Assembly: GCA_012838795.1 (NCBI GenBank)
Contig: DUOO01000063.1
Location: 35,348 to 99,347, forward strand
From: Clostridiaceae bacterium
Lineage (GTDB): Bacteria; Bacillota; Clostridia; Saccharofermentanales; DTU023
Direction of reading: 5' to 3'
Length of the DNA stretch: 64,000 nt
Part shown: positions 3,184 to 41,618 of the stretch, in pieces
Layout: every line of letters starts with the position of its first letter
Position numbering within the stretch: position 1 is the first letter of the stretch
Position numbers and translations under genes: made by a program
Notes under the pieces: model-generated
What the model was told of the DNA's origin: nothing
What the model saw: only the letters and a program-made list of their open reading frames with translations
Database searches by the model: none

Positions 3184-3275
3184 TTACGAAGATTATTCCG
3201 GATTAATTATTCTTTTTTACTATAAGTATTGTTATAGGATATATAGAGTAATATTATATGGTGATTAATTATTGT

Positions 3276-4364
3276 ATGGAATATTTCAGAAGAAACACAA
3301 AAAAATTATGGGTTAAAGATGTTGCTGTCGGAGGTAATGCTCCTATTGTTGTCCAGTCGATGAATAATACTGATACCAGAGATATTGAAGCAACCCTGGC
3401 GCAAATAGAAGATTTAGCGGCAGCCGGTTGTGAGGTAACACGGGTTGCAGTACCGGATCAGGCTGCTGCCGATGCACTTAAAGCTATAGTTGAACGCTCA
3501 CCTTTACCGGTTATTGCAGATATTCATTTTCAAGCCGAATTGGCTTTACAAGCTTTGACAAGTGGTGTTGCCGGTTTAAGAATTAATCCGGGGAATATCG
3601 GATCTGAACAAAGAGTTAAAGAAATTGCCATTAAAGCATTGGAAAAGGGAATTCCGATCCGTATAGGTGTGAATTCAGGATCTTTAGATCCTGAAATAAG
3701 AGATAGAATGGGCGGAGTGAATGCTGATTCGATGGTTGCCTCGGTTTTGAAATTTTGTAAAATGTTAGAACAATATGATTTCTATGATATTTGTGTTTCA
3801 ATTAAAGCTTCTGATCCGAAATTGACAATTGACAGTTACCGAAAATTGTCCCGAGAAATAGATTACCCGTTACATTTAGGTGTTACTGAAGCCGGTACAC
3901 CGAGAGAGGGTATTGTACGATCGGCAGTCGGGATCGGTACTCTGTTAGCTGAAGGAATCGGTGATACTATAAGAGTTTCTCTGACGGCGGATCCTGTTCT
4001 GGAAGTAGAAACTGCTTATTCGATTCTCAAGTCTTTAGGTTTAAGATCAAAAGGTGCTTTGCTGATTTCATGTCCTACTTGCGGCAGAACTGAAGTTGAT
4101 CTGCAAGGCTTGGCGGAGCAAGTTGAAATTCTGTTGGCCGATGTCAGGGAACCGATCAAAGTAGCTGTGATGGGGTGTCCGGTAAACGGACCGGGTGAAG
4201 CAAGGGAAGCCGATTGTGGAATTGCCGGTGGCAGAAATACCTTTTCAATTTTCAGAAATGGAAAAGTTGTAGAAAAAGTTAGTCAGGAAAATGCTTTAAG
4301 TGTTTTGATTCGTGAAATTGAAATCGCGCGAAATAAATATATACAGGCACATCAAGAAAATTAG
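3276..4364 (+). CDS. ispG: 4-hydroxy-3-methylbut-2-en-1-yl diphosphate synthase (flavodoxin)
   Basis: IspG (GcpE) is a [4Fe-4S] enzyme that converts MEcPP to HMBPP late in the non-mevalonate isoprenoid pathway. Visible family motifs are VQSMNNTDTRD, the cluster cysteines in SCPTCGR and GCPVNGPGEA, and the GITEAG-like stretch HLGVTEAG. I place the start at the ATG giving MEYFRRNTKK, because this matches where the family normally starts; the ORF track begins six codons earlier (MVINYC) and neither ATG has a strong ribosome site. The length (about 362 residues) is typical of the short bacterial form. It is separated from rseP by about 90 bases that may hold a promoter. Confidence 0.95.
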   Translation: MEYFRRNTKKLWVKDVAVGGNAPIVVQSMNNTDTRDIEATLAQIEDLAAAGCEVTRVAVPDQAAADALKAIVERSPLPVIADIHFQAELALQALTSGVAGLRINPGNIGSEQRVKEIAIKALEKGIPIRIGVNSGSLDPEIRDRMGGVNADSMVASVLKFCKMLEQYDFYDICVSIKASDPKLTIDSYRKLSREIDYPLHLGVTEAGTPREGIVRSAVGIGTLLAEGIGDTIRVSLTADPVLEVETAYSILKSLGLRSKGALLISCPTCGRTEVDLQGLAEQVEILLADVREPIKVAVMGCPVNGPGEAREADCGIAGGRNTFSIFRNGKVVEKVSQENALSVLIREIEIARNKYIQAHQEN

Positions 4365-4406: not shown

Positions 4407-7400
4407 TTGAAACAAAATTTAGCTGATATTTTTTCATATTTAAAAATAGAGATTACTGATCAAGACTTCTTATACTTTATACAACATTCTTTAACCGTTT
4501 ATAAACGAACGGAAGATGCTACTGATCCTGAAAAAGCAAATTACGATGTTAATCTTTTGGAAAAGATACATGTTGATAAAGTTCTGTGTAATTCAATAGG
4601 TGCTCTGTGCTTTACAATAACGGTACCGCAAGTTTTGTCCGCAAAACAAATTATGTTTTTAGAAAATAAGCTTGAACAACATTTTTCCATACCTCAGGTC
4701 ATAATTAAACAAATATCACAAACGGAAATATCTTCCGCTGAAAAAGAATGTTATGTACGGGACATAGAACCCTGGATAAAAAAACATGCGGATTTGACCG
4801 ATCATTTAACAGGACGTTTACTGGCTAAAGGTGAACTGACAGTTAGAGATAATAATCCCGTTTGGCTTTTGGATTCGGCTCATCTTGATATTGTTAATGA
4901 AAACGGCACAAATTGGTTGGATGTTTTTTGGCAAGCCTATGCCTGTATTCCCTGTCAATTTGACTTTGAGCCGGTTGACACACAATTTACGGCGAAAGAA
5001 AAGATTGAAACAACAGAGCAGCTTTTAAATGATGCAATACTTGAAGCATCTGAATTATATAATAATGAACTTGAGCAAATACTGGCTGAACAAAGAAAGC
5101 GAAAAAAAGCTTCAACTTCAAAGTTAACCAAGAATAAATATCGTCGAAAACATCGAAAATCTGATAAAATCCTGTGGGGAAAACCAGGACCGTCGATTCC
5201 GTTAATAAAACTCAATGAGATAAACAATGAAACTGATCGGGCTATGTTTGAAGGTCATGTTTTTATGTTTGAAACTAAAATTACCCTTAACGGCAGATTG
5301 TTGGTTAAATTTGCGATTACTGATTTAACTACATCGTTATCTTGCACAATTTTTACCGACCCTGAGGAGAAAGCTGTACTTACCGAAATTATTGAAGATA
5401 AATATATCAGGGTAACAGCAGAAATATTTTATGATGATCGATATGAAAAAGATTTTGTAGGTAAAGTACTGTGTATAGAAAAAGCTAAAAAACCTGAGGT
5501 ACGCAAAGATAATTCTCCTCAAAAAAGAGTGGAATTACATATTCACTCGAAGATGTCAGCTAAAGACGGAACAATCAATCCTAAAGATATTGTTAAAGCG
5601 GCATTTGATTTTGGCCATTCTGCAGTTGCTATTACTGATCATGGTGTGATGCAAGGTTTTCCGGAAATTTGCAACATGGCTGAGAAGTTAGAACGAGACG
5701 GCAAACCTTTTAAAGTAATTTACGGTGTTGAAGGATATCTTTTAGATGACGGATTTGATTGTATTGCTTATGAGGTCGAAGGCAAAGATTTATCAGATGG
5801 TTTTATCGTAATCAAAGTTCATACAAACGGCAATGAAAATGAATATAAGGCAATTAGTTATATTGAAGCTTTAAAACTTAAACCTACAGATTTATCCAAA
5901 TATGAATTTGAAATTGCGGATAAATTTGAACATTTTTTTGAAACTTTTTCAAATTCTTCAGATGATACAAATATTAATAATAATGATTTGCCGTTAATTG
6001 AAAAAAAGTCGTCGGATTTCGGCTCCGATATTGATATAATGCAAAAGTTGGCAATCTTTTTGGAAAATTTACCGATTGTAGCATCGGATGCATTAAAACA
6101 ATTGAATTTTTTACGTTATGCCGGTTTTAATGTTGCAGGTACGGATCCGCGCATAAAATTTAATCCGCCGTTAATTGAATTTAACTTATTAGTTCAAGCA
6201 TTTACAAAAAAAATACCGGGAAAAACACAATTTTTAAATGAACCGGATTCATATGATATATATTCAATTGCCGGGGTTTTTCCTGAGATTATTGCAGAAT
6301 GCGGAATAACTGATCTGATTGAATTGAACAGTCTGGTTGATTGGCAGTCATTTGAACAACTGAAGGAACAACGCAAGAAAACAAACCATATTGTACTTTT
6401 GGCAAAAGATTTATTGGGACTATACAATTTATATCGTATATGTTCAGATTCACATTTGAAATACTTTTATTATTCTCCAAGAATTCCACGTTCAGTACTA
6501 AATTATTACGGAGCAGGAATTATTAAAGGGATGGCATGTGTAGACGGAGAAATATTCGGTGCAATTTTACAAATATATAATGAATGTCAAGGCGATTTCG
6601 AATTAGCTAAGCAACAATTAAATAATCCTGACTTGCTTCTGCTGGCAAATCAATATGATTATTTGGAAATTCAACCTCTTACCAACAATAGCTTTTTGCT
6701 GCGTGATACGGAATCTTATGTTCAATCTATTTTTGACTTGCAGAATTTGAACAAAATGGTTATTGAACTGGGTAAAATTACAGGCAAACCGGTTTGTGCA
6801 ACTTGTGACGCTCATTTTTTGAATCCGGAAGATGCAATATATCGGAAAATCCTGATGACAAATATGAATTTTGATGATACGGAAGAGATGGCTGATTTGT
6901 ATTTCCGAACAACTGATGAGATGTTGCTGGAATTTTCATATTTAGGAGAAGAATCGGCAGAACAGGTTGTAGTACATAATCCGAATTTGATAGCCGATAT
7001 GGTAGCTGAAGGAATCAGACCTTTTCCGAAAGGTTCATTCCCGCCTTTAATCAAATCCGCCGATCAGGATATCCGAAAATTGACGATGGAAGAGGCTTAT
7101 CGAGTCTATGGACATCAGGGAGTTTTGCCCGAAATTGTAGAAAATAGAATTGACAGAGAGCTAAATTCGATAATAGATAACGGTTTTGCCGTAATGTACT
7201 ATATTGCACATTGTGTAGTCAAGAAATCAAATCAGGACGGTTTTCTGGTCGGTTCACGCGGTTCTGTGGGATCTTCTCTGGTGGCTACACTTTGCGGTAT
7301 AACCGAAGTCAACCCTCTGCGGCCACACTATGTATGTCCTGAATGTAAATATTCCGAATTTGATAATAGTGGTAATTACGGTTCCGGATATGATCTGCCG

Positions 7401-8930
7401 GCAAAGAAATGTCCGTATTGTACAACTGACCTGAAACGTGACGGACAAGACATCCCGTTTGAAACTTTCCTTGGTTTTGCCGGTGATAAACAACCGGATA
7501 TCGATCTCAATTTTTCCGGATTTTATCAAGCGAAAGCTCATCAATTTATCGAAGAAATGTTTGGAGCTTCTCAGACTTTCAGAGCCGGAACAATCAGCAG
7601 CTATGCCGAGCGTAATTCCGCAGGAATGGTTCTGAAATATTTTGAAAATAATGAAATACCGGTCAGTTCGACCGAAGTTAAACGTTTAGCACAAGGTTTA
7701 CAGGGAGTTAAAGCGACTACCGGACAACATCCAGGCGGTATTGTTGTTGTACCTAAAGAAAGAGAAATTTTTGATTTTACACCGATTCAGTATCCTGCCA
7801 ATAAAAAAGATTCCGGTGTTATTACTACACATTTTGACTTCCGCTCTTTGGATGAAACTATCTTAAAACTGGATATTTTGGGACATGATGATCCTTCGAT
7901 GCTAAAAGTTCTGAGTGATGCTACCGGTGTTAAGGCTACCGATATTCCGATCCCGGATGAAAAAGTCATGTCGTTATTTTATAGTACGGAAGCTTTGGGC
8001 ATTCCGGATAGTGAGTCTACAATTAAAAGTGCAACGATCGGTTTACCCGAACTTGGAACAATGCTTGTCAGAAACATGATTGCTGAAACGAAGCCAACAA
8101 AGTTTTACGATTTAGTACAGATTTCCGGTTTGTCTCATGGAACTGATGTCTGGACCGGAAATGCTCAAGAATTAATTCGCAACGGAACTTGTACAATAGA
8201 CGAGGTTATCGGTTGCCGGGACAGCATCATGACTTATCTGATTTATCGCGGTCTGCCCAAGAAAAGTTCTTTTGATATTATGGAAAGAGTTCGCAAAGGC
8301 AAAGGTTTGTCGGAAGAACAAGAAGAGTTAATGATTGAGCATCATATTCCTCAATGGTACATTGACAGTTGTAAAAAAATTAAATATATGTTCCCGAAAG
8401 CTCATGCCGTGGCTTATATTGTTTCAGCTTTACGGATTGCCTGGTATAAAATATATTATCCGGAAGCATATTATTGTGCATTTTTTACTATTCGGGCAAA
8501 TGAATTTTCTTCTGAAGAATTATGTTTGCCTGCTAATGAAATTCGAATTAAGCGGGCGGAACAAAGAAAAAACTGGAATCAACTGACACCACAGGAACAA
8601 AAGCGTCATTTTTATTTAGAATTAGTTGAGGAAATGCAACAAAGAGGAATTGATTTCTTACCGATAGATCTTGATAAATCCAAAGCAACCGAGTTTTATT
8701 CGCCTGGAAAAGGAAAAATCAGACCTCCCTTTAATGCAATACCGAATATCAGTGAAACACTCAGTAATCAAATTGTAAAAGCTCGTGATACGGGAGGAGA
8801 GTTCAAGACTCGCGAAGAATTGGCACGTCGAGCGGAACTGGGCACGGCATCAATTGAATCTTTGGCAAAAGCCGGTGTTTTGGATGACTTGGCTGAATCT
8901 GCACAGATAGATCTATTTTCGCTGTTGTAA
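4407..8930 (+). CDS. polC: DNA polymerase III alpha subunit, PolC type, with a seemingly inactive exonuclease domain
   Basis: PolC is the main replicative polymerase of Firmicutes. The start is TTG, eight bases after GGAG. Order of parts: N-terminal domains, OB fold (about 278-365), PHP domain opening with H378-I-H380, a DnaQ-like exonuclease insert (about 466-640), the rest of PHP, a C4 zinc finger (CPEC, CPYC), the polymerase core with D1031 and D1033 in PDIDLNFSG, and C-terminal domains. Polymerase motifs such as TTGQHPGGI, LKLDILGHDDP, GLSHGTDVW and YMFPKAHA are intact. In the exonuclease insert the usual Exo I D-x-E aligns with K470-V-H472, and the Exo II Asp aligns with Q565. Standard proofreading should therefore be lost. 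The nine expected PHP metal ligands are present: H378, H380, D387, H412, E442, H661, C711, D801, H803. At 1507 residues it is slightly longer than the roughly 1440 of well-known PolC proteins. Assignment is certain; exonuclease loss rests on a manual alignment. Confidence 0.97.
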   Translation: MKQNLADIFSYLKIEITDQDFLYFIQHSLTVYKRTEDATDPEKANYDVNLLEKIHVDKVLCNSIGALCFTITVPQVLSAKQIMFLENKLEQHFSIPQVIIKQISQTEISSAEKECYVRDIEPWIKKHADLTDHLTGRLLAKGELTVRDNNPVWLLDSAHLDIVNENGTNWLDVFWQAYACIPCQFDFEPVDTQFTAKEKIETTEQLLNDAILEASELYNNELEQILAEQRKRKKASTSKLTKNKYRRKHRKSDKILWGKPGPSIPLIKLNEINNETDRAMFEGHVFMFETKITLNGRLLVKFAITDLTTSLSCTIFTDPEEKAVLTEIIEDKYIRVTAEIFYDDRYEKDFVGKVLCIEKAKKPEVRKDNSPQKRVELHIHSKMSAKDGTINPKDIVKAAFDFGHSAVAITDHGVMQGFPEICNMAEKLERDGKPFKVIYGVEGYLLDDGFDCIAYEVEGKDLSDGFIVIKVHTNGNENEYKAISYIEALKLKPTDLSKYEFEIADKFEHFFETFSNSSDDTNINNNDLPLIEKKSSDFGSDIDIMQKLAIFLENLPIVASDALKQLNFLRYAGFNVAGTDPRIKFNPPLIEFNLLVQAFTKKIPGKTQFLNEPDSYDIYSIAGVFPEIIAECGITDLIELNSLVDWQSFEQLKEQRKKTNHIVLLAKDLLGLYNLYRICSDSHLKYFYYSPRIPRSVLNYYGAGIIKGMACVDGEIFGAILQIYNECQGDFELAKQQLNNPDLLLLANQYDYLEIQPLTNNSFLLRDTESYVQSIFDLQNLNKMVIELGKITGKPVCATCDAHFLNPEDAIYRKILMTNMNFDDTEEMADLYFRTTDEMLLEFSYLGEESAEQVVVHNPNLIADMVAEGIRPFPKGSFPPLIKSADQDIRKLTMEEAYRVYGHQGVLPEIVENRIDRELNSIIDNGFAVMYYIAHCVVKKSNQDGFLVGSRGSVGSSLVATLCGITEVNPLRPHYVCPECKYSEFDNSGNYGSGYDLPAKKCPYCTTDLKRDGQDIPFETFLGFAGDKQPDIDLNFSGFYQAKAHQFIEEMFGASQTFRAGTISSYAERNSAGMVLKYFENNEIPVSSTEVKRLAQGLQGVKATTGQHPGGIVVVPKEREIFDFTPIQYPANKKDSGVITTHFDFRSLDETILKLDILGHDDPSMLKVLSDATGVKATDIPIPDEKVMSLFYSTEALGIPDSESTIKSATIGLPELGTMLVRNMIAETKPTKFYDLVQISGLSHGTDVWTGNAQELIRNGTCTIDEVIGCRDSIMTYLIYRGLPKKSSFDIMERVRKGKGLSEEQEELMIEHHIPQWYIDSCKKIKYMFPKAHAVAYIVSALRIAWYKIYYPEAYYCAFFTIRANEFSSEELCLPANEIRIKRAEQRKNWNQLTPQEQKRHFYLELVEEMQQRGIDFLPIDLDKSKATEFYSPGKGKIRPPFNAIPNISETLSNQIVKARDTGGEFKTREELARRAELGTASIESLAKAGVLDDLAESAQIDLFSLL

Positions 8931-9025: not shown

Positions 9026-11329
9026 ATAGAAAATATAATTAGCAAAAAATTCATAAAAGTTTATCTGCTGGATTCAACACTTGATTTTGATCAGGAATAT
9101 ACTTACTTACCTAAAGAAGAAGCAGAGCATTTCATAGGCCAATTGGTAGAGGTTCCTTTTGGGCACGGTAATTCTTTACGCAGGGCAGTTATTTCTGCTG
9201 AAGAAAATGAAACTGAATTCAAAGATCTAAAACGTATTGCAAAAGTATTGATCAGTCAGCCTGTTTATCTGCCGGATCAAATTGAATTGGCAAAAGAAAT
9301 GAAACGCAGGTATTTTTGTTCAATCGGTCAAGCTTTGAAAACTATCAGTCCTCCTACGGTTTTTACAATAGGCAAAAAAAGTGCCAGAGCTTGTAGTTTA
9401 ACAGATCGTGATATTGCGGAAGATATGTTATGTGATAATTTATTGACTAGTTTGCAACAACAGCGGGTTGTCGAAATGTTGCTTCAAGTTGAAACTGCTT
9501 CTGTTCAGGAAATAACACAGGCATGTCAGGTAACACCTTCAGTACTTAAGACTTTAGAACGAAAAGGAGTACTGAAATTTTTTACAAAAAATATAGATCG
9601 TGAATTTAAACAACCGGAAATTTGGCCGGAAGCAGAAGTAGAACACTTGAATCAGGATCAGGAAAAAGCTGTTCAAGGAATTCTTGACTTAGCCACAATG
9701 AACGAAACAACAGATGTTGATTTTCAACAAAGTAAAAAAATTTCAAAGTTAAAAGAAGCTTTGTTATTTGGTGTTACCGGCAGTGGAAAAACAGAAGTTT
9801 ATTTAAGAGTAGCAGAACAAATGCTTGAATATGGCAAAACTGTCATTATTTTAGTACCGGAAATATCTTTGACTCCATTGATGATAAGCAGATTTACAAA
9901 AAAATTCGGAGAAAAAATTGCCGTTTTACATAGTAGATTAACTGCAACCCAACGTTTTGAGCAATGGCAAAGCATTTTGTCTCAGGATAAACAAATTGTG
10001 GTAGGGGCACGTTCAGCGATTTTTGCTCCCTTGAAAAATATCGGTTTAATTATTATTGATGAAGAACAAGAGAGTTCATATCGTTCCGAAAGCACACCTC
10101 GTTACAATGCACATGAGATTGCCAGAATCAGAGCGATTCAACAAAATGCATTACTTTTATTAGGATCTGCTACTCCTGCAGTTGAAACTTTTTTCCGTAC
10201 TCAAATCGGAAAATCCGTCAGATTTGAATTGCCGCATCGGGCCAAACCGGCTTCTTTACCGAAAGTACATCTATGTCAAATGAAAAATGAATTTGCCCGT
10301 GATGATTTTGACGGAGTATTCAGCAGACAATTGATTCAAAATCTCAGAGTAACTTTTGCAGATGGTGGTCAAGCTATGTTGTTTTTGAATCGCAGAGGTC
10401 TGACTTCAACTTTACAATGTAAAATCTGCGGATTTGTTGTAAAATGCGATAATTGCGAAGTGCCTATGACGAGACATTTGAACAGACATTACAAGCATAA
10501 AGAGAGGTTAATATGTCACTATTGCGGAAAAATCATACCTGTAATTACAACTTGCCCTCTGTGCGGAAGTGCGAAAATGGAAAGCTCGGGACTTGGTACA
10601 CAGAGAGTGGAGCAAGCTTTTGCCAAATTGTTTCCCGAATATAAAGCGTTGCGTATGGATTTTGATACAACAATCGGAACAGATGCTCATCAAAAAATAT
10701 TATCTCAATTCGGCAGAAAGGAAGCCGATTGTCTGATCGGTACACAGATGATTGCAAAAGGTCATGACTTTCCGAATGTACGGACAGTCGGTATTTTGTC
10801 TGTTGATTCAATGCTTAATACAGGTAATTTCAAATCGGAAGAACGTGCTTTTCAATTAATAACTCAGGCCGCGGGCAGATCCGGCAGATCAGATATTCAA
10901 GGTGATGTTTTTATTCAAGGTTATAATTTGATAAACCATGTGATTAAAAGTGCTTCTGCACAGGATTATATTGAGTTTTATAACTCTGAAATGGAATTTA
11001 GAATGCGGGCAAAATTTATTCCTTTCGGAAATATCGGATTGGCGTTGTTTCAAGGCTTGAATGAGTTAATTGTTAATTCTGAAGCAGATTTTATGTATGA
11101 ATATTTAAATAATATAATACAATCAAATCGCGATTTTTTCAGTAATACCATGATTTATTCACCCGCTCCTGCACCGATTCCTCGTTTACGCAAAAAGTAT
11201 CGTTATCGTTTAATCGTTAAAAGCGACAATATTCTTAAAATTGCTCAGTTGTTTACTTTGGAATCAAGGCGCAAAATGGTAAAAGGTGTAAATCGCAGCC
11301 TGGATATTAACCCTGAACACATGCTATAA
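9026..11329 (+). CDS. priA: Primosomal replication restart helicase PriA (start codon unusual)
   Basis: PriA is a 3'-5' DNA helicase that reloads the replisome at collapsed forks. Visible motifs are Walker A in FGVTGSGKTEVY, a Walker B reading DEEQ where most PriA proteins have DEEH, GSATPAVET, the zinc-binding pairs CKIC, CDNC, CHYC and CPLC, and the helicase end GTQMIAKGHDFPNV and QAAGRSGR. The ORF track starts at TTG 9143, but the frame upstream is clearly PriA-like (KVYLLDSTLDFDQEYTYLP leading into VEVPFG). No ATG, GTG or TTG occurs in frame there before the polC side. A good ribosome site, AAGAGGG at 9014-9020, lies 5 bases before an ATA at 9026. I therefore place the start at ATA 9026, with ATT as an alternative. 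If TTG 9143 were used, the N-terminal 39 residues would be lost. Confidence 0.93.
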   Translation: MENIISKKFIKVYLLDSTLDFDQEYTYLPKEEAEHFIGQLVEVPFGHGNSLRRAVISAEENETEFKDLKRIAKVLISQPVYLPDQIELAKEMKRRYFCSIGQALKTISPPTVFTIGKKSARACSLTDRDIAEDMLCDNLLTSLQQQRVVEMLLQVETASVQEITQACQVTPSVLKTLERKGVLKFFTKNIDREFKQPEIWPEAEVEHLNQDQEKAVQGILDLATMNETTDVDFQQSKKISKLKEALLFGVTGSGKTEVYLRVAEQMLEYGKTVIILVPEISLTPLMISRFTKKFGEKIAVLHSRLTATQRFEQWQSILSQDKQIVVGARSAIFAPLKNIGLIIIDEEQESSYRSESTPRYNAHEIARIRAIQQNALLLLGSATPAVETFFRTQIGKSVRFELPHRAKPASLPKVHLCQMKNEFARDDFDGVFSRQLIQNLRVTFADGGQAMLFLNRRGLTSTLQCKICGFVVKCDNCEVPMTRHLNRHYKHKERLICHYCGKIIPVITTCPLCGSAKMESSGLGTQRVEQAFAKLFPEYKALRMDFDTTIGTDAHQKILSQFGRKEADCLIGTQMIAKGHDFPNVRTVGILSVDSMLNTGNFKSEERAFQLITQAAGRSGRSDIQGDVFIQGYNLINHVIKSASAQDYIEFYNSEMEFRMRAKFIPFGNIGLALFQGLNELIVNSEADFMYEYLNNIIQSNRDFFSNTMIYSPAPAPIPRLRKKYRYRLIVKSDNILKIAQLFTLESRRKMVKGVNRSLDINPEHML

Positions 11330-37134: not shown

Positions 37135-38973
37135 TTAAACAATTCTTTTGAAAAGCTTTTCCAAATCGGTTTGTCTTAACTCGATAATCAAGGGTCTGCC
37201 ATGAGGACAATGATAAGGATTAACTAATTCAGTTAAGTCGGAAATTAATTTTTTCATCTCATTATAACTAAGGTTATCATGAGCTTTAACTGCAGCTTTG
37301 CATGCTACGGTATAAAGCAACTCATCATGTTTATCTTCTTGAAAAAATGATTGATCCAGAATCGAATCAATTAAGGATTTAACTGCAGAAACCGGATTCG
37401 AAAACTTTTTACCGGTATCAGGAACTGTTCGAATGATAATCGTATTATTTCCGAATAGACCAATTTCAAATCCCAAACGATCAAATTCAGCTAAATTTTC
37501 CTCAACTAAAGCCATCTCATGTGTAGTTAATTCCAGAGTTTCATTTTGTAATAAAATTTGTTTATTTAATAGTTGATTCTTATTTTTCATGTACTGATCA
37601 TGCAATTGTTCATAGATGATTCTTTCATGTGCTGCATGTTGATCTATAATTATAAAACGATTCTCATGTTCTAATAATAAATACGTTTGAAAAACCTGGC
37701 CGATTAACCTCGAATCCTTTAGATAAGATAATTCGGTTTGGCGTGCTTCAGGATCAGCTTGATCAGTTTGTTGATGCATAATAAATGCCCGTGCTTGTTC
37801 GGCAGGATGAATACGTTCATCTGCATTATATTTTTGTTTGGTTGCTTGAGTAATTGTCTCCTTCAATGGATTGTTTGCATGAGGTTTCTTTTCATCAAAA
37901 CTATAGTCCAGGGGTGTTTCTTTAAATTTTACTGATACAGGTGTGATACTATCATAGAAGCTACTCGAAATTTCGCCCTTTATAACAGTAGAACCGGATT
38001 CTAAAGCTTCTCTGATACCGTGATATACGGCACGAAAAACAATTTGCTCATCCCAAAATCTTACTTCGGTTTTTTGCGGATGCACATTGATATCTACTAA
38101 ATTCAAAGGTATTTCCAAATTGATAACCAAGCTGGGAAACTTTCCTTTCATAAACCATGTCTTGCATGCTTCGGTAATTGCTGCGGAGACGATCCGGGAC
38201 GCAATACTTCTTCCATTAACCAACACGATTTGCCGACTGCGATTTCCTCTGGAGACTTGCGGTGTTGTAATATAACCCGATAATTTTACAGGTTCAAAGA
38301 AATAATCAACTTCAACCATTGCTTCAGTAGTCTCTTTACCGAATAGAACATAAATTGTGCTAAGCAAATTATTGTTACCGGGAGTATGCAGCAGATTATT
38401 TTGATTCGATGTCAGACGAAAAGAGACATCTGATCTTGCTAAAGCTAATCGTGTTAATAAATCAGCTATATAACCTTGTTCAGTTTGATCTCGTTTCAAA
38501 AATTTATATCTGGCAGGAACATTATAAAATAAATCCCGAATTTCAATTTGAGTTCCTTCAGGACATCCGACTATTTGAGATTTAATTAATTTTCCACCTT
38601 CAACGATTACTTCAAACCCCTGTTCTTGGCCGATTTGTCTTGTGTGCAGATTAACTTTTGCAACTGCCGCAATACTTGCTAAAGCTTCACCGCGAAACCC
38701 CATCGTCGTCAAATGTTCTAAATCGGAAATTTTATTTAATTTTGACGTAGCATGTCTTTCAAAAGCTAATACAGCATCTTCCGGTGTCATACCACAGCCA
38801 TTATCGCTGATTAGAATTCGTTTAATGCCGCCTTGTTCAATATCACAATTAATAATAGATGCACCGGCATCTAATGAATTTTCAATCAATTCTTTGACTA
38901 CTGAGGCCGGTCTTTCAATTACTTCTCCGGCTGCTATTCCGTTTGCAGTTATAGTATCTAAAATTTGAATCAT
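37135..38973 (-). CDS. mutL: DNA mismatch repair endonuclease MutL
   Basis: MutL couples mismatch recognition by MutS to strand cutting. The N-terminal GHKL ATPase has IAAGEVIERPASVVKELIENSLDAGA, ISDNGCGM and GFRGEALASI. The C-terminal domain carries the endonuclease motif DQHAAHERIIYEQL together with ACKAAVKAH and CPHGRPLI, so it belongs to the nicking type found in bacteria without MutH. Length 612 is typical. It lies 23 bases after mutS. Confidence 0.97.
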   Translation of the reverse strand: MIQILDTITANGIAAGEVIERPASVVKELIENSLDAGASIINCDIEQGGIKRILISDNGCGMTPEDAVLAFERHATSKLNKISDLEHLTTMGFRGEALASIAAVAKVNLHTRQIGQEQGFEVIVEGGKLIKSQIVGCPEGTQIEIRDLFYNVPARYKFLKRDQTEQGYIADLLTRLALARSDVSFRLTSNQNNLLHTPGNNNLLSTIYVLFGKETTEAMVEVDYFFEPVKLSGYITTPQVSRGNRSRQIVLVNGRSIASRIVSAAITEACKTWFMKGKFPSLVINLEIPLNLVDINVHPQKTEVRFWDEQIVFRAVYHGIREALESGSTVIKGEISSSFYDSITPVSVKFKETPLDYSFDEKKPHANNPLKETITQATKQKYNADERIHPAEQARAFIMHQQTDQADPEARQTELSYLKDSRLIGQVFQTYLLLEHENRFIIIDQHAAHERIIYEQLHDQYMKNKNQLLNKQILLQNETLELTTHEMALVEENLAEFDRLGFEIGLFGNNTIIIRTVPDTGKKFSNPVSAVKSLIDSILDQSFFQEDKHDELLYTVACKAAVKAHDNLSYNEMKKLISDLTELVNPYHCPHGRPLIIELRQTDLEKLFKRIV

Positions 38974-38996: not shown

Positions 38997-41618
38997 TTAT
39001 ATTTTACCCTTTGCTTCAGCAATTAACTCTTCAAGAATTTTTCTGGCGTCCACCGGACTAACATAATCCATATCAATATTTTTAAGTTTATCAATTACTT
39101 TATTGGTTTGATTAAAACTTTGGGCAGCAGAAAACAAGTCTAATTGACCGTCAAACGGTCTGGCAGATTTTTTTACGGTTAATCTGCGACCTTGATTATC
39201 GCGCTCAAGTTGAAAGAGGATTTCTCTGGCTCTATCTACGACAGAATCAGGCACTCCTGCTAATTCGGCAACTTCAATACCATAACTTTGTCCTGCACAA
39301 CCATCTTCAATTTGATGTAAAAAAACAATTTTACCATCTTGTTCAGTTGCTGAAATATGACAATTAAAAACTCCTAGAGTCGATTCCGCTAAATCTGTTA
39401 ATTCATGATAATGTGTGGCAAATAAAGTTCTGGCATTGATATATTCGGGGTCGACAATATGCTCAATGACCGACCAAGCAATCGACAAGCCGTCATAGGT
39501 ACTGGTTCCCCGGCCGATTTCATCTAATATTAACAGACTTCTCGATGTCGCATTACGCATAATTTGTGAAACTTCGTTCATTTCAACCATAAAAGTAGAT
39601 TGACCGCCGGCCAGATCATCCGCAGCTCCGACTCTGGTAAAAATCCGATCGGTAATACCTATTTCAGCAGAATCAGCAGGGACATAACTTCCGATTTGGG
39701 CAAGCAAAACAATCAAAGCTACTTGACGCATAAATGTAGATTTTCCTGACATATTAGGACCGGTTAAAATCATTACTTTTTTCTCGCCATGATCGAGATA
39801 AGCATCATTAGGTACAAATTGTCCGTAATCTAATGTTTGTTCAACTACCGGGTGTCTGCCATTGGAGATTTCTATTGTCAAATCTTCGGTTAACAGCGGT
39901 CTGCAATAATTATTCTGCTCCGCCACTTCAGCCAGTCCTGACAACACATCAATTTGGGATAAGACATCAGCATTAGCTTTCAACTGCGATAAATAAGTAA
40001 TAGTTTCATTTCTGATTTCTAAAAATAATTCATATTCTAAAGAAATTAATTTTTGCTCAGCGCCGAGAATTTTATCTTCCATGATTTTTAATTCTTCAGT
40101 TATGTAACGTTCAGAATTGGTTAAGGTTTGTCGTCTGATATATTCTTGCGGCACCGCATCTAAATTAGTTTTTCTTACATCGATATAATAGCCGAAAACA
40201 CGATTATAGCCTATTTTAAGTGATTTAATTCCGGTTCTTTCTCTTTCTTGAGTTTCAAGATTTAATATCCACTGTTTACCGTTTTGTGTAGCGTCTCGAT
40301 AATTATCAACTTCAGAATTAAAACCTGTACGGATTAAATTCCCTTCTTTAATTGATATTGGCGGTTCATCGACAATTGCAGTATTTAACAAATCCATTAA
40401 ATCGGGTAAATCCTGTAATTGTTTGTTCAATGAATTAATATATGGATCATCGAAATCATTTAAGATGTCTTTGATCGGTCCGATTTTTTCCAAAACCGAG
40501 ATTAAAGATACCAGATCTCTTGCATTGATTTGCCCTAAAGCAATACGTCCGCACAGTCTTTCCAAATCATAGATACCGGTAAATTGTTCAATTAGATTTT
40601 GACGCAAGATAAAATTATCAAGTAACGTAGAGATAGCATCTTGTCTGCGCACAATTGTATTAATATCCAAGAGAGGCTGTTCGAGCCAATAACGTAATAA
40701 CCTGGCTCCCATGCTGGTTTTAGTACGATCAATAGCCCAAAGCAGACTCCCTTTGCGTTTTCTGTCGCGCAAAGTTTCAGTAAGTTCAAGATTACGCCTG
40801 GCATTTTGATCGAGAATCATAAAAGCATCTTGTTGGTAAGGTTTGATTTTATCAATATCATCAGGCAGAGTGAACTGAGTAGATTGAACATAGGTTAACA
40901 AGGCGGCAGTGGAAGCAGCCCATAAAGAGTAATCATTAGTTTCGATCATCGGGAATTTTGCAATATTATCATGATTAAAGTCAGTGTCAGGTTGTACTGA
41001 CAAGGTAATAGTTTCTCTTTGCATGAGGTCATGACAAGTTTTAGAATCTGCAAATTCTTGATTGCAAATTATTTCGGATGGTTGAAAACGTGCTAATTCA
41101 TCTAACAACTTAAGTGTTGTAGCTCCATAAGTAATTTCTGTAGTTTCAAATAAGCCGGAACTGATATCGCAAACAGCAAGTCCATAATATGAGCCTTTTT
41201 GAAAAATAGAAGCCAAAAATAAATATTTTTGTTCATCAATTGCACTCTGATCGGTTAAAGTACCCGGAGTTATTACCTTGACAACCTCTCTTTTAACCAA
41301 GCCCTGAGCTTCCTGCGGATCTTCTACTTGTTCAACAATAGCGACTTTGTAGCCTCGATTGACCAGACGAAGGATATAATTATCCGCAGCATGATGAGGT
41401 ACACCTGCCATCGGTGCCCTTTCAGCAAGACCGCATTCTCTGCCGGTTAAAGCTAATTCTAATTCTTTAGAAGCTAATACCGCATCATCAAAAAACAATT
41501 CATAGAAATCTCCCAACCGAAAGAAAATTAAACAGTCAGGTCTCTTCTTCTTTTCTGCAACATATTGCTGCATCATCGGAGTTAATTCTTCACAACTTAC
41601 TTGTTCAAAACTCAACAT
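38997..41618 (-). CDS. mutS: DNA mismatch recognition protein MutS
   Basis: MutS binds mismatched base pairs and small loops. The N-terminal mismatch-binding motif F-x-E is seen in FRLGDFYELFF. The C-terminal ATPase has Walker A TGPNMSGKSTFMRQ, Walker B LLILDEIGRGTSTYDG and the family end helix-turn-helix (AELAGVPDSVVDRA). Length 873 is normal for MutS1. The start overlaps the miaB stop by seven bases. With polC proofreading in doubt (see findings), the presence of a full MutS/MutL pair is relevant to mutation control. Confidence 0.97.
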   Translation of the reverse strand: MLSFEQVSCEELTPMMQQYVAEKKKRPDCLIFFRLGDFYELFFDDAVLASKELELALTGRECGLAERAPMAGVPHHAADNYILRLVNRGYKVAIVEQVEDPQEAQGLVKREVVKVITPGTLTDQSAIDEQKYLFLASIFQKGSYYGLAVCDISSGLFETTEITYGATTLKLLDELARFQPSEIICNQEFADSKTCHDLMQRETITLSVQPDTDFNHDNIAKFPMIETNDYSLWAASTAALLTYVQSTQFTLPDDIDKIKPYQQDAFMILDQNARRNLELTETLRDRKRKGSLLWAIDRTKTSMGARLLRYWLEQPLLDINTIVRRQDAISTLLDNFILRQNLIEQFTGIYDLERLCGRIALGQINARDLVSLISVLEKIGPIKDILNDFDDPYINSLNKQLQDLPDLMDLLNTAIVDEPPISIKEGNLIRTGFNSEVDNYRDATQNGKQWILNLETQERERTGIKSLKIGYNRVFGYYIDVRKTNLDAVPQEYIRRQTLTNSERYITEELKIMEDKILGAEQKLISLEYELFLEIRNETITYLSQLKANADVLSQIDVLSGLAEVAEQNNYCRPLLTEDLTIEISNGRHPVVEQTLDYGQFVPNDAYLDHGEKKVMILTGPNMSGKSTFMRQVALIVLLAQIGSYVPADSAEIGITDRIFTRVGAADDLAGGQSTFMVEMNEVSQIMRNATSRSLLILDEIGRGTSTYDGLSIAWSVIEHIVDPEYINARTLFATHYHELTDLAESTLGVFNCHISATEQDGKIVFLHQIEDGCAGQSYGIEVAELAGVPDSVVDRAREILFQLERDNQGRRLTVKKSARPFDGQLDLFSAAQSFNQTNKVIDKLKNIDMDYVSPVDARKILEELIAEAKGKI

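Follow-up and report, generated by a model that had tools for sequence, protein, structure and literature searches.

The window analyzed here is a 64,000-nucleotide stretch of the genome (2.09 Mb, 96% complete) of a Clostridiaceae bacterium. It carries polC within the gene order cdsA-dxr-rseP-ispG-polC-priA-def-fmt, which is standard in the family (Table 1). The gene begins with a TTG start codon with GGAG upstream of it, and its product matches the NCBIfam PolC equivalog model TIGR01405 over the whole protein (1260 bits against a cut-off of 1043). Pfam searches recovered the PHP, polymerase, finger and HhH domains, and the protein is intact for the OB, PHP, polymerase and HhH regions as well as the clamp-binding motif. 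The three catalytic aspartates of a PolC-type polymerase (D1031, D1033 and D1156) are present. A prior sequence-only reading of this locus had proposed that the proofreading exonuclease of this enzyme is dead while the flanking PHP and polymerase motifs are intact; the latter part is borne out by the recovery of all nine PHP ligands together with the three polymerase aspartates. The frameshift that it had discounted is likewise absent, the reading frame being open and the proteins of seven species being alike.

Table 1. Features of the polC locus and mismatch-repair genes in the window (coordinates are window positions)
Feature	Position	Strand	Evidence
ispG, preceding polC	3258..4364		
polC, 1507 aa	4407..8930	+	NCBIfam polC_Gram_pos above cut-off
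PHP N-terminal half; metal ligands H378 H380 D387 H412 E442	5526..5762	+	Pfam, residue table
Inserted DnaQ-like domain, catalytically dead, residues 455-655	5769..6371	+	residue table, profile alignment, no RNase_T match
Exo I stretch IVIKVHTNG (Asp to K470, Glu to H472)	5805..5831	+	profile alignment
Exo II stretch VASDALKQLNFL (Asp to Q565)	6078..6113	+	profile alignment
Order-specific conserved patch RYAGF..PRIKFNP	6114..6167	+	conservation in relatives
Exo III remnant PDSYDIYSI (HRA deleted, single Asp D617 remaining)	6243..6269	+	profile alignment
PHP C-terminal half; metal ligands H661 C711 D801 H803	6372..6896	+	residue table
Polymerase catalytic D1031 and D1033 (PDIDLNF)	7497..7505	+	residue table
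Third polymerase catalytic Asp, D1156	7872..7874	+	residue table
C-terminal clamp-binding motif QIDLF	8904..8918	+	sequence
priA, following polC	9143..11329		
mutL, mismatch repair retained	37135..38973	-	
mutS, mismatch repair retained	38997..41618	-	

The DnaQ-like exonuclease domain (hereafter Exo) inserted in the PHP domain lacks four of its five DEDDh residues. In place of the D-x-E, D and H-x4-D of active enzymes it displays K470 and H472 (at 5814 and 5820), Q565 (at 6099) and a deletion of the histidine, with one aspartate left, and the window PolC has no Pfam match to RNase_T even at E<=10. Using hhalign, we compared five Exo domains of the window's genus with 14 intact PolC Exo domains and obtained a colinear profile alignment (E 2e-18). 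In this alignment the DVETTG of intact PolCs pairs with KVHTNG at Exo I and VAHNAxFDxGFIR pairs with VASDALKQLNFLR at Exo II, while HHRAxDDA at Exo III stands opposite a gap followed by SYDIYS. This colinearity implies that the Exo III histidine has been deleted and that D617 is the only aspartate at a catalytic position; the LTGIT region is also missing. Alignment with the Enterococcus faecium PolC cryo-EM structure 9QPC, in which the catalytic D431 and E433 are both alanine (PMC12592400), gave the same losses. Thus, the three substitutions named in the earlier reading are exact to the letter and its statement that Exo III shows at most one key residue holds; a hunt for a DEDD set at shifted positions found no alternative set in the colinear alignment. 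From these alignments we infer that the Exo insert is a pseudo-exonuclease that cannot hold the two catalytic metal ions.

The domain nevertheless appears to be folded. An AlphaFold model of the window PHP and Exo regions (mean pLDDT 90, pTM 0.89) has the PolC structures 9QPC/9QRN as its best PDB matches and places the insert within the PHP domain; further matches of its Exo part are the exonuclease domain of Thermotoga maritima PolC (2P1J), RNase T and an S. thermophilus DnaQ domain. When modelled alone (pLDDT 81), the Exo domain matched the same DnaQ-like families with TM-scores of 0.4-0.55. About 22 residues (roughly 516-539), at the LTGIT site of intact enzymes, are modelled with low confidence. 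The dead insert is accordingly placed by the models among DnaQ-like domains, a fold that it is predicted to keep.

The dead Exo domain is under relaxed but still purifying selection. Pairs from the genus give dN/dS values of 0.16-0.38 for Exo, whereas the polymerase lies at 0.03-0.05 and the first half of the PHP domain at 0.01-0.15. Their dN ratio of Exo to polymerase is 4.9-8.1, compared with 2.2-2.8 in five exo-intact pairs, with the pairs being non-independent and dS near saturation in several of them. The ratio spans 2.1-8.3 in other exo-dead genera, and relaxation is hence not uniform. While the catalytic columns have dissolved, all 24 dead and all 15 intact PolCs of the order share R570, K584, F585 and N641, and nearly all share R582, G573 and L569; outside the order, R570, R582 and K584 vary. 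The invariance of R570, K584, F585 and N641 suggests that the domain has a role other than catalysis or is constrained by folding, either of which may explain the retention of the dead domain in the order; the conserved patch could, for its part, reflect nothing beyond such a folding constraint.

The change is shared by relatives, as the sequence-only reading had suggested checking: all seven sampled genomes of the genus are exo-dead. Their Exo I substitutions differ (N/E, Q/D, K/N and K/H), and glutamine is found at Exo II in 7/7. The PolC L005 (genome G003) is a probable intermediate, whose NLETTG has Exo I Asp replaced by Asn but keeps the Glu and TTG, with Exo II already Gln. Across the order, which is related to Saccharofermentans, the 39 complete PolCs divide into 24 with a retained but dead Exo and 15 with the DEDHD set; Saccharofermentans species of the order are also exo-dead (L063, L070). 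One PolC (L017), listed as DEDED in the residue table, was rejected as an intact enzyme; this reading is a misalignment, since its printed segments, LASLALLYDD and LLTTQGLTDLQSL, are degenerate. A DnaE1 tree of the order requires six changes to account for the exo-dead state, five of them forced by starred branches, and a PolC tree built without the Exo columns, with losses counted as irreversible, gives about eleven Exo losses (six retained-dead, all in this order, and five shortened or excised elsewhere), both trees being from quick methods with long-branch warnings and mostly draft genomes. The phylogenies suggest about six independent inactivations of Exo in the order, with the domain being kept.

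In a survey of 108 Clostridia genomes, 17 outside the order have a PolC without an RNase_T match in the PolC frame. The insert between two PHP ligands measures 17-26 residues in 14 of these, 58 in one and approximately 150-160 in two. Degraded or short Exo remnants, with 58-162 residues between the PHP ligands, occur outside the order in families f36 and f24 (L232, L233, L234), and f36 also includes members without a PolC match. These 17 correspond to the exo-less type of PolC, which makes up 6% of PolCs and has been known since Timinskas et al. 2013 (PMC3919608). Hence, a PolC without a working Exo, which the earlier reading had thought unusual in Firmicutes, is less so than claimed, given both that study and the 17 cases of our survey. 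According to a 2026 survey of polymerases from more than 3000 species, the domain inactivated in Pol III alpha subunits is PHP and not DnaQ (PMC12926913); judged by their catalytic residues, the exo-dead PolCs of this order are counterexamples to that statement.

The PHP site of the window PolC has the complete nine-ligand set (HHDHEHCDH). All 28 PolCs with a dead retained Exo likewise have 9/9 PHP ligands and an intact polymerase DDD, and the 17 PolCs without a recognizable Exo from other Clostridia families also show 9/9 (45/45 in total). Among exo-intact PolCs the PHP site deviates in 12/91, of which 10 are from Bacilli (Fisher p 0.009, confounded by lineage); since Clostridia have an intact PHP by default and the contrast stems from the Bacilli, we do not claim complementarity of PHP and Exo as a statistical law. 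A mirror image is seen in L026 (G012, genus g7), the sole order member with a broken PHP: its PHP is degenerate (HKDRELLNH) and its Exo is DEDHD, the opposite of its nearest relatives, g4 and g1.

In Mycobacterium tuberculosis DnaE1 the PHP domain is the proofreader, and mutation of D23 or D226 inactivates it; Geobacillus PolC, with one of the nine PHP residues altered, has no exonuclease (PMC5636811). By alignment and residue table, the window PolC has an aspartate, D801, where Geobacillus/Bacillus-type PolCs have asparagine. Given the nine ligands kept, the precedent of the M. tuberculosis enzyme and the aspartate at 801, PHP exonuclease activity is a reasonable prediction, and it does not follow, as had been claimed, that this polymerase is without a 3'-5' exonuclease of its own. 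It is probable that error correction has shifted from Exo to the PHP domain of PolC. Work on Escherichia coli, on the other hand, raises the prospect that PHP may be a pyrophosphatase or purely structural (PMC4822814, PMC3666897).

Searches of the host genome found no PF00929 match that would represent a stand-alone DnaQ, and compensation by such a protein was rejected as an explanation. There was also no match in it to PF01612, the Pol-I-type DEDDy exonuclease; this family was unmatched in 7/7 genomes of the genus, and also in B. subtilis, whose Pol I domain is dead. PF00929 proteins occur in only three genus members, and the ones inspected were Cas2-DnaQ fusions and one DEDDh-BRCT protein. 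The RNase_T proteins L200, L201, L202 and L214 have a Cas2-like N-terminus (confirmed by Pfam as Cas2CT1978 in L200), and in two of the seven genus members such a fusion is the only DnaQ-type nuclease found. A search for a second polymerase, by contrast, did yield one: DnaE1 with an intact PHP, which is intact in 20/20 genomes examined. A mutator state that includes loss of mismatch repair was discarded, as both MutS and MutL are encoded in the window.

The reading that we favor, and consider fairly probable, is that the window encodes a working, clamp-bound C-family PolC with a folded pseudo-exonuclease, with proofreading by its own PHP and/or by the PHP of DnaE1 in trans. The trinuclear metal site of its PHP would then correct its errors, DnaE1 PHP might serve in trans as an alternative or in addition, and MutS/MutL would back up PHP proofreading. 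Exo would be a dispensable proofreader in Clostridia because these are redundant in this respect, with PolC PHP, DnaE1 PHP and PolC Exo. Retention of the dead domain might reflect a need of the PHP loop for a filled insert, or else docking of the R570/K584/F585 patch to DNA or a partner. Counting against this reading is that conservation of the PHP, being the clostridial default, may predate the loss of Exo.

The strongest competitor, a serious one although we place it somewhat short of an even chance, is that PolC has ceded the role of main replicase to DnaE1, which would copy the genome and proofread with its own PHP, and the exo-dead PolC would be an accessory or gap-filling enzyme heading to loss. 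Every genome in which DnaE1 was sought does have it, with an intact PHP and in most cases a clamp motif, and polC is absent from two sister genera, g3 and g5, which are DnaE1-only Clostridia of 1.4-2.3 Mb (L150-L160), a finding that weakens the case for PolC as the main replicase. In 11 genomes of these genera polC is cleanly missing, with ispG followed directly by priA across a gap of ~100-190 bp on contiguous contigs, and polC-less g3 is sister to exo-dead g2 in the DnaE1 tree. The degraded Exo remnants of family f36 beside its PolC-less members fit the same course, and the idea was voiced for Clostridia by Timinskas et al. 2013 (PMC3919608). However, the polymerase and PHP parts of exo-dead PolCs are under strong purifying selection (dN/dS ~0.03-0.15), unlike a decaying gene, the clamp motif is kept in most of the exo-dead PolCs, and one of the three polC losses (G051) falls among exo-intact relatives.

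That the lineage lacks effective polymerase proofreading altogether and is a constitutive mutator leaning on mismatch repair appears improbable. Consistent with it, the genome has no DEDD proofreader of the families searched (PF00929, PF01612) and has kept MutS and MutL, but both of its C-family polymerases have a complete PHP site, and the exo-dead state is old, genus-wide and was reached repeatedly. We hold it to be very unlikely that Exo retains activity by way of a metal site that is shifted or non-canonical. Its retained length and fold, a dN/dS below 1 and the remaining D617 might be read in that way; against this, besides the lack of an alternative DEDD set and of the His-Arg-Ala and LTGIT elements, the substituted positions vary between genera (K/N/Q; H/E/D/N) and no new conserved acidic residue has emerged, only D561 being frequent (19/24). 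An artefact of assembly or binning, or a chimeric or phage polC, can be practically dismissed: the genus genomes are draft, multi-contig assemblies, but seven independent ones agree, the gene order is standard and the frame is open.

A bolder proposal, which we advance only tentatively, is that replicative proofreading in the order passed wholly from the DnaQ type to the PHP type several times, with the dead domain kept as a docking or structural module around R570/K584/F585. If true, the order would offer a natural series from active Exo via pseudo-exonuclease to polC loss. More generally, a clostridial replisome has up to three candidate proofreaders, and exo-dead PolCs bear on which of them works; close relatives that differ only in the PolC DnaQ site (within g6; g1 versus g7) make the question testable. 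The window PolC is also a good test protein for whether any PolC PHP proofreads.

The window PolC shares with the Bacillus/Enterococcus/Geobacillus-type PolCs (9QPC, 3F2B) the OB-PHP(Exo insert)-Pol-HhH order, the clamp motif and the polymerase residues, with 28% identity to 9QPC over PHP and Exo, but differs from them in having lost the Exo catalytic residues. It also has the full nine PHP ligands, whereas the one altered in Geobacillus PolC (PMC5636811) is an Asn for Asp in the alignment. Like the exo-less PolCs of Clostridia and Negativicutes, it is without DnaQ-type activity as judged from its residues, has an intact PHP (as in the 17 checked) and has DnaE1 as a partner; in those, however, the insert is mostly excised to 17-26 residues, whereas here the domain is kept, apparently folded and constrained, though dead. 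PolCs with a retained dead Exo can thus be seen as a halfway form between normal PolC and the exo-less PolCs already known. In its complete nine-ligand PHP the window enzyme resembles M. tuberculosis DnaE1 and the Pol III alpha of Thermus, and PHP proofreading is predicted for it; unlike these, it is a PolC whose PHP loop houses a pseudo-exonuclease. Finally, Pol I orthologs with a dead 3'-5' exonuclease (e.g., that of B. subtilis) likewise keep a DnaQ-fold domain without its catalytic residues; those enzymes are Pol I, whereas the one described here is a Pol III alpha.
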